The notes beneath the pieces were generated by a model, which was not told the DNA's origin, searched no databases, and was given only the letters and a program-made list of their open reading frames with translations. This document shows positions 31,889-35,907 of a DNA stretch of 64,000 nucleotides, piece after piece. The stretch is from NCBI RefSeq assembly GCF_003443675.1, contig NZ_CP031963.1:2999501-3063500 (forward strand), read 5' to 3'. Both the position numbers and the translations under genes were made by a program. The stretch comes from Aquimarina sp. BL5. GTDB lineage: Bacteria; Bacteroidota; Bacteroidia; Flavobacteriales; Flavobacteriaceae. Position 1 is the stretch's first letter, and each line of letters starts with the position of its first letter.

Positions 31889-31916
31889 TATAAAGAATGT
31901 TTAAAAATTTGATTAG

Positions 31917-31948
31917 CAAAAATAAGCTTCAAACTTGTTTTTAACAAG
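31917..31948 (-). promoter_or_regulatory. Putative sdhCAB promoter with overlapping inverted repeat
   Basis: On the minus strand, TATTTTTG (31924-31917) fits the -7 consensus and a TTG (31947-31945) lies about 20 nt upstream as -33. The -33 sits in a short inverted repeat CTTGTT...AACAAG (31934-31948), a possible operator. The 383-bp gap 31889-32271 otherwise shows only the divergent promoter of the TPR regulator. Confidence 0.5.
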
Positions 31949-32229
31949 ATTTTGAACCAGTAATACAGTATTTATAATGAATTAAAATAGATTATAAATT
32001 TTGTTTAGCTTTCATTACGAAATCGTTTGAAATATAGCGCTAACTTTGAACAAAAAGTAATTAGCTTCATAACTAAAATGTTAATTTTATGTCATAAATC
32101 ATAATGGGATTCAGGCTTGCAACTATTACGTTTACATCATCAAACTGATATTTCAAAACTAATATTGCAAAAAGATGTCATAAAGCTGTTAGTTATCGTC
32201 TCTTCAAAATATTAAAAAACGAAAAACAC

Positions 32230-32237
32230 TACTTTTG
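32230..32237 (+). promoter_or_regulatory. Putative -7 element TACTTTTG of the TPR-HTH gene
   Basis: Perfect TAnnTTTG match 34 nt before the GTG start at 32272; no obvious -33. Confidence 0.4.
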
Positions 32238-32271
32238 AAAAACAATCAAACTTTTAACACATTACTTTTAG

Positions 32272-33966
32272 GTGAAACAGTTCTTATTAAAATTTATTCT
32301 TTTAACACCTTTATTCCTTTTAGGAAATACACTAACAAATGCAAATCAATCTAACACACAAGATAGCTTAGCAACCAAATCTCCTCAAGAATTAATAGAG
32401 CATCTAATACAATCCTCTAATTCTAAACAAAGTAAACCTTATGAAGTTGCTCTTTCCAATCTTTTTAATGACAATTCGATTTTAGCAGAGCACTATTATA
32501 GTGTTTCTGATACTTTTTATGAAAAAGGAAAATACGATCGCAGTATATACTATTTAGACAAAGCAATCAAATCAGTTAAAGGTGTTAAAAATGATTCTCT
32601 TTTATGCAAATATTTTATCGCATCCGGCAATTCATATTTAAAGGATTGGAAAAACCAAGAATCTCTGGATTATTATAACAAAGCCTTAAATATTGCTCAA
32701 AGTAATGGGTATATTAGAAATGAATTTATTACTAATTCTAGCATATCCATTATTCTAAGAAGAATGGGGCAGCTTGATAAAGCCCTTAAAGTTTGTAAAA
32801 ACTCATTAAAACTTACAGAAAACTCAATTGATAAAAATACCGAAAATCACGTCAGGCTTATTAATATTATAAGTGAAATTTACTTAGATCAAAAAAAATA
32901 CGATTCAGCTAATCATTATGCAGACATCGGTTTAATTATGAGCAAATCATTAGATTTTTCTATTGGATCCATTGATTTATATACAAAAAAAGGGGTTGTG
33001 TATTCCCATAAAAATGACAATCAGAAAGCATTGCTATACTTTCATAAAGCTGAAGAGATCCTCATTGACAAGAAAATTACTCAAAAAAAATCGATTTTAA
33101 ACATTAATTACTTTCTAGCAAATCATTTTTATGAGGAAAAAAAATATAACAAGGCAATTTCTTATCTAAACAACACTATCCCCATCTTAGAGGAAAAAGA
33201 TGCTCGAAATAGTAGAGTACTTGATACATACATTTTATTAGCAAATTGTTATTCTAAAATCGGTAAAACCAATGAAGCTATGCATTGGCTCCAAAAGCTC
33301 ATAAAATTAAAAGATCAATTTGAAGATGCTAAACATAAAACGATTACTAAATTACATAAACAAGAGATTCATGAATTAGAAAATCGAATGGAAATAATTA
33401 CAAATGAAGAAATGAAAGAAGAACGTTATAAAGAATATACATTCTTCTTGCTATTATCCGTTTGTATTATCTTAATTTTTATTGTTTTTAAATATTTCAA
33501 AAAACAAAAAACAAACAATGCACGATTTAATGAATTATTAGGAAAGATAAACTCACTAGAACCCAAAGAAAAGAACCTCGTACAAGCAGTAATAATTAAT
33601 GATAAAAAAGTTAATGCTGTACTAGATGGATTGGAAAAACTGGAAAATCAGGAATATTTCTTAAATACTGATTGCGATCTTAGATCCCTGTCTAAAAAAG
33701 TAAAAACGAATACAACCTATTTGTCTAAAATTATTAAAACACATAAGGCAGCTAGTTTTAACGATTATATTAACGACCTAAGAATCGAATATGCGTTAAA
33801 ACGATTAAAAAATGATAAAAAATTTAGATCTTTTTCTGTTAAATCAATTGCCTTAGAAATTGGATATAAAACCGACAATTCTTTTACAAAGCACTTCAAA
33901 TCAAAGACTGGATTAAACCCATCTTACTATATCAAAAAAATAAATAATCAATATTACAACTCCTAA
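32272..33966 (+). CDS. TPR sensor with membrane segment and C-terminal AraC-type HTH
   Basis: 564 residues from a GTG; no in-frame ATG precedes the signal-like N-terminus (KQFLLKFILLTPLFLLGNTL). Residues ~30-370 contain tandem TPRs (YDRSIYYLDKAIK, NQESLDYYNKALNIAQ, NQKALLYFHKAEEIL, YNKAISYLNNTIPILEEK). A membrane helix follows (FFLLLSVCIILIFIVFKYF, ~390-408), then a cytoplasmic linker and an AraC-family DNA-binding domain (LRSLSKKVKTNTTYLSKII, FNDYINDLRIEYAL, SIALEIGYKTDNSFTKHFK). This one-piece periplasm-to-DNA regulator type is frequent in Flavobacteriia. It directly precedes two leader-peptide genes, which makes them candidate targets. Confidence 0.88.
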   Translation: MKQFLLKFILLTPLFLLGNTLTNANQSNTQDSLATKSPQELIEHLIQSSNSKQSKPYEVALSNLFNDNSILAEHYYSVSDTFYEKGKYDRSIYYLDKAIKSVKGVKNDSLLCKYFIASGNSYLKDWKNQESLDYYNKALNIAQSNGYIRNEFITNSSISIILRRMGQLDKALKVCKNSLKLTENSIDKNTENHVRLINIISEIYLDQKKYDSANHYADIGLIMSKSLDFSIGSIDLYTKKGVVYSHKNDNQKALLYFHKAEEILIDKKITQKKSILNINYFLANHFYEEKKYNKAISYLNNTIPILEEKDARNSRVLDTYILLANCYSKIGKTNEAMHWLQKLIKLKDQFEDAKHKTITKLHKQEIHELENRMEIITNEEMKEERYKEYTFFLLLSVCIILIFIVFKYFKKQKTNNARFNELLGKINSLEPKEKNLVQAVIINDKKVNAVLDGLEKLENQEYFLNTDCDLRSLSKKVKTNTTYLSKIIKTHKAASFNDYINDLRIEYALKRLKNDKKFRSFSVKSIALEIGYKTDNSFTKHFKSKTGLNPSYYIKKINNQYYNS

Positions 33967-34148
33967 AATCTCATAGCATTAAGCGAATTTTTCCAAAAGA
34001 TAAAAATATGGTTACTTAGTCCATATTTCTCACCTTAATTTCTTTAAAATACGGTTACCTATTTATGAATTTCCGGGTATAAAAAGTACCTTGAAATCAT
34101 ATTCGTTGGAGTGTGTATAAATAAAACTCATTTAAAAACATTAAGATT

Positions 34149-34307
34149 ATGAAAACAAAACAAAAAAACACTATTGCCTTAAAAAAGCTTACTATAGCTA
34201 AGATTAATCACGATACAATGATAAAAATAAAAGGTGGAGAATGTGATCCTACAAAGCCTGATACCGGAAGCCATTTGACTCACTGTAATTGCAATGATGT
34301 ATATTAA
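34149..34307 (+). CDS. Double-glycine leader peptide, candidate RiPP/lanthipeptide-type precursor
   Basis: 52 codons from ATG 34149 to TAA 34305-34307. The N-terminal 30 residues look like the Bacteroidota natural-product leader: Lys-rich start, IALKKLTIAKINHDTMIKIK and then GG at 29-30. The 22-residue core starts ECDPTKPDTG and ends THCNCNDVY, with three Cys (32, 46, 48) and several Thr/Ser, compatible with lanthionine-type or disulfide cross-links. Export and cleavage would need a C39-peptidase ABC transporter; none is in this window, nor is a LanB/LanC or radical-SAM enzyme. A strong terminator follows, so it is a separate unit from the second peptide. Confidence 0.72.
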   Translation: MKTKQKNTIALKKLTIAKINHDTMIKIKGGECDPTKPDTGSHLTHCNCNDVY

Positions 34308-34336
34308 AATCAAACCTCTTAATTAACTGTTATTTT

Positions 34337-34377
34337 ACATCCGTATTTTTCGCAAAATACGGATGTTTCATTTTTTT
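34337..34377 (+). terminator. Rho-independent terminator after first leader peptide
   Basis: A 13-bp perfect stem ACATCCGTATTTT / AAAATACGGATGT with a short loop, then TTCA and a run of seven Ts, 29 nt after the stop. Confidence 0.9.
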
Positions 34378-34502
34378 ACACCTTCATTTCGATATAACTT
34401 GAGTTGAAAATCAGTGTATGATGAGTACTTGATTTTAACAAGGGTAAACCGAAAACCTTTTTATAGAGTAGGTAGAACATCAATAGTTTAAAAAACAAAA
34501 TT

Positions 34503-34682
34503 ATGTTATCAAAAATTCTAAAATTAAAAGACGTTGCCAAATTGGACAAAACAGAACAGTTATCTATCAACGGAGGCTATTATTGCAGAACAAATCTACG
34601 TTGCGAAACATCACAAGATTGTTGGGAAGTAACAGGTGATTTTTCGGATAGATGTAACCAAGGTTATTGCCATATATTTTAG
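34503..34682 (+). CDS. Double-glycine leader, cysteine-rich secreted peptide precursor
   Basis: 59 residues from ATG 34503 to TAG 34680-34682. Leader MLSKILKLKDVAKLDKTEQ then LSINGG (GG at 24-25) matches the frequent flavobacterial pattern ending in an INGG cleavage site. The core of 34 residues is rich in aromatics and has five Cys (28, 34, 40, 51, 56) in the order CRTNLRC, QDCW, RCNQGYC, which looks like a small disulfide-bonded (knottin-like) peptide or bacteriocin. The function is unknown. Its own terminator follows 24 nt later. Start chosen because the leader motif begins there. Confidence 0.72.
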   Translation: MLSKILKLKDVAKLDKTEQLSINGGYYCRTNLRCETSQDCWEVTGDFSDRCNQGYCHIF

Positions 34683-34706
34683 ATATTAATTTAATTTGTC
34701 ATCAGT

Positions 34707-34733
34707 AAACCCTGATATTTTCAGGGTTTTTTT
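34707..34733 (+). terminator. Rho-independent terminator after second leader peptide
   Basis: Stem AAACCCTGA / TCAGGGTTT with a 5-nt loop and a following T run. Confidence 0.9.
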
Positions 34734-34761
34734 ATACCTTCTCTTTTTTTGATGTATAACT

Positions 34762-35907
34762 ATGAGGAATATCCACACAAAATTGCCCAACGTATCCACA
34801 ACAATTTTTACTGTAATGAGTAAAATGGCAAATGATTATAAAGCTATTAATCTCTCTCAAGGATTTCCAAATTTTAAAACTGACAAAAAATTAATTGATT
34901 TAGTAACCATTGGCATGCAGAAAGGACATAATCAATATGCGCCTATGCCTGGTTTATTATCTTTAAGAAAGGTGATTGTAGAAAAAACGAATGCTCTTTA
35001 CAACAGTGATTACCATCCCGAAACCGACATAACGATTACTTCTGGCGCTACACAGGCTATTTTTACGATTATTTCAGCATTTATTCATCCTGGAGATGAA
35101 GTGATCATTTTTAAACCCGCCTATGATTCTTATGAACCTTCTATAGAATTATTTGGAGGAACGATCATTCCAATTCAACTATCAGCACCTAGTTTTACTA
35201 TTGATTGGAAAGAAGTTGCGAGTAAAATTACTTCCAAAACAAAAATGATTATCATCAACACTCCTCATAACCCATCCGGAACTGTTTTATCAAAAAACGA
35301 TATGCTCCAGCTAGAAGCTTTATTAAAGAATACAGATATCATTTTATTAAGTGACGAAGTCTATGAACATATTATTTTTGATGGTCAGGAACATCAGAGT
35401 ATTGCTAGGTTTCCCGGATTGGCAGAAAGAGCTTTTATTACTGCTTCTTTTGGTAAAACGTTTCATACTACTGGCTGGAAAATGGGATATTGTATTGCAC
35501 CTAAAGATCTGATGACTGAATTTAGGAAAGTGCATCAGTTTAATGTATTCTGTAGTAATCATCCTGTGCAACATGCATTGGCAGCGTATCTAAAAACACC
35601 TGAACATTATTTATCCCTACCCAATTTTTATCAAGAAAAAAGAGATGTATTCTTATCATTAATCAAAGATTCCAAATTTTCATACATTCCTGCAGCGGGA
35701 ACTTATTTCCAATTATTAGATTATACAGCTATTACTGACGAAAGTGATGTGGCGTTCGCCGAAAGACTAACAAAAGAACACAAAATTGCTTCTATTCCAG
35801 TTTCGGTATTTAATCTTAATCAACAAGATGATAAAGTGCTACGATTTTGTTTTGCTAAAACAGAAGACACCTTGAAAAGAGCTGCGGAAATTTTATGTAA
35901 CATATAA
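34762..35907 (+). CDS. Methionine/aromatic aminotransferase (class I/II, YbdL-like)
   Basis: 381 residues. PLP-dependent fold-type I signatures: LSQGFPNF near the N-terminus, SGATQAI, NTPHNPSGTV (Asn170), LSDEVYEHI (Asp198, Tyr201) and ASFGKTFHTTGWKMGY with the PLP lysine Lys232. The SQGFPNF and FHTTGWK forms are those of YbdL-type methionine aminotransferases and kynurenine-oxoglutarate transaminases. It likely transaminates methionine and aromatic amino acids, for example at the end of methionine salvage. Cytoplasmic. It starts 29 nt after the terminator of the second peptide gene, so it is probably not part of a peptide biosynthesis operon. Confidence 0.92.
   Translation: MRNIHTKLPNVSTTIFTVMSKMANDYKAINLSQGFPNFKTDKKLIDLVTIGMQKGHNQYAPMPGLLSLRKVIVEKTNALYNSDYHPETDITITSGATQAIFTIISAFIHPGDEVIIFKPAYDSYEPSIELFGGTIIPIQLSAPSFTIDWKEVASKITSKTKMIIINTPHNPSGTVLSKNDMLQLEALLKNTDIILLSDEVYEHIIFDGQEHQSIARFPGLAERAFITASFGKTFHTTGWKMGYCIAPKDLMTEFRKVHQFNVFCSNHPVQHALAAYLKTPEHYLSLPNFYQEKRDVFLSLIKDSKFSYIPAAGTYFQLLDYTAITDESDVAFAERLTKEHKIASIPVSVFNLNQQDDKVLRFCFAKTEDTLKRAAEILCNI

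Follow-up and report, generated by a model that had tools for sequence, protein, structure and literature searches.

In Gram-positive auto-induction, as by nisin with NisRK, an induction peptide acts together with a histidine kinase and a response regulator, and the receptors of the RRNPP group (Rap, NprR, PlcR) are cytosolic and sense peptides that have been re-imported. Bacteroidetocins have a GG leader of 15-16 aa and four Cys, with a C39 ABC transporter and a thiol oxidoreductase encoded in the same gene cluster (PMC6671954). Separate TPR genes are mentioned for two Bacteroidales clusters and an HTH gene for another in one study (PMC10352776), and RiPP clusters of Aquimarina and Kordia are described in a second, the available part of which does not mention a regulator of the kind presented here (PMC10734526). 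In the literature searched, where subscription papers and preprints are scarcely covered, we found neither a membrane TPR-AraC design for a peptide receptor nor a peptide pheromone system of such a kind in Bacteroidota.

The window analysed here is a stretch of 64,000 nt (bases 2999501-3063500) of the single-contig genome of Aquimarina sp. BL5 (6,011,237 bases). It encodes a regulator, R, followed by two short peptides, A and B, and the locus has the following features, with positions counted from the first base of the window:

32272..33966, + strand: R, a TPR-TM-AraC regulator of 564 aa with a GTG start (PF13424, 4.4e-24; PF12833, 4.2e-13)
34032..34055, no strand assigned: operator-like palindrome before A, 10-4-10, 8/10 arm pairs complementary
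34087..34094, + strand: -7-like box TACCTTGA, exactly 31 nt past the palindrome
34149..34307, + strand: peptide A, 52 aa; leader 34149-34238 ending in IKIKGG, core 34239-34304 with three Cys, stop codon to 34307
34337..34366, + strand: terminator-like 13-pair hairpin with a T-rich tail, 3' of A
34439..34474, + strand: DUF805b RNA (RF02914) in the leader of B, 41.0 bits (gathering score 35.6), ending 28 nt before the ATG of B
34503..34682, + strand: peptide B, 59 aa; leader 34503-34577 (25 aa) ending in LSINGG, core 34578-34679 with five Cys, stop codon to 34682
34707..34729, + strand: terminator-like hairpin 3' of B

An earlier, sequence-only reading of this DNA had described two consecutive ORFs of 52 and 59 codons with double-glycine leaders and cores of three and five Cys, each with its own terminator, behind a membrane TPR-HTH regulator, and all of these elements were recovered at the positions listed. 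The DUF805b RNA ahead of B had escaped that reading. Three terminator-like sites were found in 31900-35000, the third on the other strand, as compared to a mean of 0.9 in shuffled sequence, and the inner part of the hairpin after A (34340-34363) resembles the palindrome before A, with 4 of 14 arm positions differing. In R, a TPR solenoid (residues about 30-330) precedes a hydrophobic helix (about 391-409) and an HTH_18 domain (473-555), which scored 49.8 bits against a cut-off of 33.6 and places R among the AraC family regulators. The helix, with a hydropathy of 2.74 in the 19-aa window at residue 391, is the one strongly hydrophobic helix of the protein and was present in all 104 relatives of R, an arrangement compatible with an inner membrane protein that would expose the TPR solenoid to the periplasm and the AraC-type domain to the cytoplasm. 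An AlphaFold2 model of R had a mean pLDDT of 89.6 and a pTM of 0.67, and fold searches with R returned general TPR neighbours. By eye, no histidine kinase or response regulator look-alike was seen among the ORFs of at least 150 aa that lie between R and B or directly flank them. The R gene of one sister module (L117:7541-10115), however, is directly preceded by a gene for a LytTR response regulator.

Like the Gram-positive systems for auto-induction of lanthipeptides and class II bacteriocins, the locus would combine a secreted signal of GG-leader or lanthipeptide type, a bacteriocin output and a matched pair of signal and receptor; unlike them, it unites sensor and DNA-binding domain in the single membrane protein R, shows by eye no histidine kinase gene between R, A and B, and belongs to a Gram-negative host. 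R shares with the RRNPP receptors a TPR superhelix as presumed peptide sensor and a peptide gene adjoining the receptor gene, but differs from them in its membrane helix and C-terminal AraC domain. By description, B can be likened to the bacteroidetocins in its GG leader and Cys-rich core and in the presence of a C39 ABC transporter and a thiol oxidoreductase in the genome at about 5.44 Mb, whereas its leader of 25 aa, its five Cys, its DUF805b RNA and the lack of an adjoining transporter or oxidoreductase gene set it apart. A is similar to Bacteroidota class I lanthipeptide precursors (NF038153) in the style of its leader, in the Ser/Thr and Cys of its core and in the LanB and LanC of its genome, but falls under the cut-off of that family, has no adjoining LanB or LanC gene and is tied to R. 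Finally, the leader RNA of B is by score a member of DUF805b (RF02914), and most members found here precede exported peptides. We propose, with somewhat better than even confidence, that the locus is a peptide-signalling switch in which R acts as a one-component transmembrane receptor and activator, A as a secreted signal and B as a bacteriocin effector.

A profile of R was searched in species genomes, and the best 80 of 95 confirmed stretches yielded 77 loci in Aquimarina, Dokdonia, Kordia, Lacinutrix and other Flavobacteriaceae, which may overlap or share one strain, so that counts over them are not independent; the scan for R loci itself relied on two motifs of the HTH part. A GG peptide was encoded within 450 bp downstream of 91 of 104 unique R, a count that describes this subfamily since the profile was built from R proteins beside A-type peptides, and of 13 of the 337 other unique ORFs that are 150 aa or longer (Fisher p 6e-65), several of these 13 being A-type peptides behind cut or broken copies of R. 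R had 36 matches in its own genome, and in the regions read nine R-like genes passed a filter on length and coverage for a full-length TPR-AraC protein, seven of them with GG peptides directly behind. Within the genus, R was found just upstream of A in 29 of 30 peptide A loci, the exception being L079, where the match to A contains stop codons. The named relatives of A, like the R loci, come mostly from Aquimarina. The A-type peptide is usually the first gene after R, whichever effector comes next, and the second gene varies by locus between the B family, an MLNNIL...KAG family and MKKSLKNLELKKQTIS... precursors, the latter often near LanB or LanC genes. By these sequence comparisons, A and B are not lone orphans but part of an R-A-B module that recurs, and the two peptides seem to play different parts.

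Other arrangements were also encountered. A TPR-AraC paralogue at L118:5402-7780 is followed by palindromes and a TACTTTG box and then by a 126-aa protein with a hydrophobic N-terminus, with no GG peptide, and is possibly the same switch with another output. At L120:11225-11905, three further consecutive GG-leader ORFs lie on the strand opposite to the regulator of that locus, and in Flavobacteriaceae bacterium R38 four consecutive TPR-AraC genes were found with no GG peptides detected (L270:2884-10406).

An alignment of 29 R-A gaps contained one conserved block. By a fixed criterion, and with the best palindrome taken per gap, 37 of the 44 R-A gaps from Aquimarina contain a 10-4-10 palindrome (mean 2.9 and maximum 9 in 200 mononucleotide shuffles). 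In 35 of these 37 it is followed at exactly 31 nt by the start of a TAnn[TC]T box, the distance to the ATG varying from 65 to 118 nt. We take the TACCTTGA box to be a -7-like element of the Bacteroidota promoter type. The arms of the palindrome vary by locus (ACCTTA, ACCGCA, ACCTCA, ACCCTA, TGGCTA), a change in one arm being matched in the other, and palindrome and box were found together in 25 of 32 gaps outside Aquimarina, a set in which, as in the covariation analysis below, up to three palindromes were tried per gap. Within 200 nt past the stop codon, a palindrome followed 78 of 91 R with a GG peptide, 3 of 13 R without and 99 of 347 other genes; with the box at 31 nt, these counts became 76/91, 2/13 and 3/347, hence the palindrome alone is common and its combination with the box is not. 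The link between regulator and peptides, which the sequence-only reading had put forward as a possibility, is strong. Upstream of B, the best match to the operator of the own locus exceeded the mean of the operators of other loci in 62 of 82 loci (p 2e-10), as compared to 37 of 81 upstream of R (p 0.28), indicating that R probably acts through the palindrome on A and B and not on itself. On this sequence evidence, we regard control of A and B by R as highly probable.

It could be argued that R and the peptides merely share variable islands, that the palindrome serves as an RNA or terminator element, and that neither peptide is regulated by R, in line with the adjacency of R and A, the terminator-like hairpin after A and the frequency of palindromes alone among other genes. 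We consider this quite improbable given the fixed spacing of the box and its near confinement, together with the palindrome, to R with peptides; moreover, a T-rich tail follows 26 of 82 palindromes, compared to a background rate of 0.195, and the arms track the HTH part of R and not its TPR part. A different objection is that R, as a repressor or immunity-type sensor, silences the peptide genes and releases them on a signal from the peptide or its precursor. Activation and repression cannot be told apart from sequence, but the palindrome lies upstream of the promoter box and not over it, and a regulator site in that position is more usual for activators, making this explanation, to our mind, still slightly less probable than mere linkage. 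Two copies of a direct repeat in the R-A gap (GGTTACYTA) were considered as well and were not conserved across the 29 aligned gaps. The strict pattern ACCNNANTTT-N4-AAANTNNGGT had one exact match in the genome, which is the studied locus, and two with one mismatch; a backward control also gave two, and the pattern is thus of no use as a genome-wide search tool.

Conservation of the peptides, the absence of which had been named beforehand as refuting the reading, was found for both: at E ≤ 0.01, relatives of A were present in 30 and relatives of B in 42 of 140 genomes searched, in each case within the same genus. dN was far below dS in ten of ten pairwise comparisons (six for A, four for B), with dS saturated between A and its counterpart at L204, and four of the five Cys of B are invariant among 26 relatives. 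Membership of the pair in the precursor families NF038153 and TIGR04149 did not hold up, as A scored 17.7 bits (cut-off 22) and 15.8 bits (cut-off 25), respectively, and B had no credible match to the family profiles, these two included; relatives of A do pass, two A-type paralogues with 26.8 and 22.0 bits for NF038153 and the relatives P0009 and P0012 with 27.0 and 26.3 bits for TIGR04149. Public names of the relatives P0008-P0014 conflict, ranging over hypothetical protein, TIGR04149 rSAM-modified RiPP, natural product precursor and class I lanthipeptide, and PF28317, a label on public entries of A relatives, had no match in the Pfam copy searched. Most first peptides follow the A-type leader pattern K..I.LKKLTIA[KR]IN...M..I.GG. 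Cys occurs in the core of each of the 90 unique first peptides, exactly once in 46 of them; 89 have Cys in the last nine residues and 84 have Ser/Thr among the first six.

The sequence-only reading had found no modifying enzyme in the window and had looked to LanB/LanC or radical-SAM enzymes and C39 transporters elsewhere in the genome. Indeed, no LanB or C39 protein is encoded within the window, all genome-wide matches lying outside. LanB, Lant_dehydr_C and LanC are present in a sister module at about 3.136-3.141 Mb, about 73 kb past the window end and about 102 kb from the locus, and a second LanB and Lant_dehydr_C pair is located at about 2.531-2.534 Mb. One strong C39 ABC transporter was identified at 5.437 Mb; next to it are HlyD and a protein of the C39-VKOR type that could form disulfides. 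This export locus (L129:4117-12640), which encodes HlyD, the transporter, the C39-VKOR protein and two DUF6734 proteins, also contains a DUF805b RNA and a 73-aa GG peptide. A radical-SAM partner was not recovered, the best TIGR04148 match in the genome reaching 72.4 bits against a cut-off of 300, and this route was rejected, A also lying under the TIGR04149 cut-off. Of the suggestion that A and B are orphan precursors served in trans, service from elsewhere in the genome stands in that modifying and export enzymes are encoded there; orphan status does not, as the peptides belong to one of several R-plus-peptide modules in this genome.

Among 37 genomes from the same genus, LanB was present in all 18 that have A-type peptides and in 11 of the 19 that lack them (p 0.003, kinship uncorrected), and B-like peptides occurred in 23 of the 29 that have LanB and in two of the other eight. 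By this distribution A may be modified in trans, and B may not need LanB. Co-occurrence with C39 is uninformative, because a strong C39 match is present in 20 of 21 genomes from the same genus. The association of A-type peptides with LanB, the core Cys and Ser/Thr of the first peptides and the resemblance of their leaders to class I lanthipeptide leaders, as in the two paralogues at or above the NF038153 cut-off, are also what would be expected if R acts on A and B by way of the palindromes without A being its ligand. Both peptides would then be antibacterial, and the TPR domain would sense another cue, for instance envelope damage, a partner protein or the product of a competitor, TPR domains being known to bind many partners. 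We find this explanation unlikely, though deserving of serious weight: A-type peptides are usually the first behind R regardless of the effector, and A, and not B, goes with R at the syntenic locus and with the TPR part in divergence, as follows.

From 95 loci, 82 had a palindrome and box and 72 remained after dropping those more than 92% identical. Across these 72, the operator arms had a partial rank correlation of 0.31 with the HTH part of R when the TPR part was controlled for, against -0.14 with the TPR part when the HTH part was controlled for, and the sign of this difference held in all 300 subsamples. A weaker tie in the other direction was seen for the core of A (TPR 0.21 vs HTH 0.09; 93.7% of subsamples agree), and in 44 Aquimarina pairs the values were 0.42 and 0.20, respectively, the leader of A also following the TPR part (0.47 given the core). 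Distance correlations among related sequences thus support, short of proof, contacts between the HTH domain of R and the operator and between the TPR domain and the core of A.

The studied locus is syntenic in nine genomes, where the flanking genes are, by their look, presumably an aminotransferase gene and sdh genes. Four groups of R can be told apart there (the window, L197 and L198; L199 and L200; L201, L202 and L203; L204), and A groups much as R does, with the A of L197 as a partial exception (0.23 to L199, 0.21 to the window). Given the flanks, the distance correlation between R and A was 0.80, and B was independent of both A (0.05) and R (0.10); the nine loci make up 36 dependent pairs, and for L201 and L203, which have two B, the one nearer to the B of the window was taken. 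Compared to the window, L202 has flanking proteins that are 94 to 99% identical for the three used (84 to 97% for other flanking proteins) and a B that is 98% identical, with R at 62% and A at 56%, and L198 has R at 80%, A at 88% and B at 47%. This largely joint change of R and A without B resembles an exchange of pherotypes, although linkage also moves neighbours together. Taken by itself, the claim that A is the ligand of R stands in our estimate just on the probable side of even.

In the signalling switch that we favour, R would activate both peptide genes by binding the palindrome that precedes the -7 box of A by 31 bp and a related site ahead of B. The GG-leader precursor of A might undergo ring closure by LanB/LanC enzymes from other parts of the genome, and the C39 ABC transporter would cut and export it. 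Recognition of the mature core by the TPR domain of the matching R would then close a positive feedback loop and keep the channel private. B would be the output, translated from a message that carries the DUF805b RNA in its leader and, at this locus, disulfide-rich and bacteroidetocin-like; at sister loci the presumed output is often a lanthipeptide-like precursor beside LanB/LanC genes. More broadly, these loci could represent a flavobacterial family of peptide quorum sensing, in which transmembrane TPR-AraC receptors each have their own GG-leader pheromone and palindromic operator, several channels operate per genome, cassettes are exchanged like pherotypes and the outputs are DUF805b-led bacteriocins, a generalisation to which we give slightly less than an even chance. 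If A is the ligand of R, the locus is a peptide pheromone system built on a receptor of unfamiliar design; it would tell when marine flavobacteria switch on their many peptide antibiotic genes and would make synthetic A peptides usable to wake silent clusters.

The DUF805b RNA, which is said to have been described by Weinberg and colleagues in 2017, was not confined to this locus. In the own genome, where 150 of 4050 candidates were scored, at least 17 elements were found at E < 1e-3, a lower bound for that reason, and 12 of the 17 were above the gathering score. Both helices, one of them a pseudoknot, were backed by compensated changes among the 17 elements (pseudoknot cells paired 98%), and in a test of the stem and loop pseudoknot 95% of cells were paired, with 32 compensated cells vs 9.3 in shuffles and none of 500 shuffles as high. 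Eleven of the 17 precede GG or AG peptides. Five of the remaining six (at L138, L139, L141, L143 and L151) are followed by proteins that by eye look lipoprotein-like or secreted, and the RNA may hence mark exported products generally. The window and the 77 R loci together contained 116 elements, and 101 of the best 107 precede a GG or AG peptide, in a set that omits the nine weakest, includes the window and overlapping loci and involves a model (R1) built partly from the leaders of these same peptides. The tie to exported peptides makes the function of this orphan regulatory RNA testable.

A second conserved leader element, an AGACAG..CTGTCT hairpin followed by TTTGCT or similar, was seen before MKKLMQLKGA-type GG peptides (L117:11564-11604 and L117:11880-11920), and similar elements occur in L192, L193, L231, L232, L235-L238 and L254. 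A search of Rfam with the element in L117 gave no credible match. Its helix 1 is invariant, and the cells of helix 2 were paired at 67.3%, or at 69.2% when slid by +2, figures that demonstrate no pseudoknot, though one may exist. Elsewhere in the genome, a DUF805b RNA and a 71-aa GG peptide (G000:C1:410677-411637) adjoin the radical-SAM-like TIGR04148 match mentioned above, which carries an internal stop.
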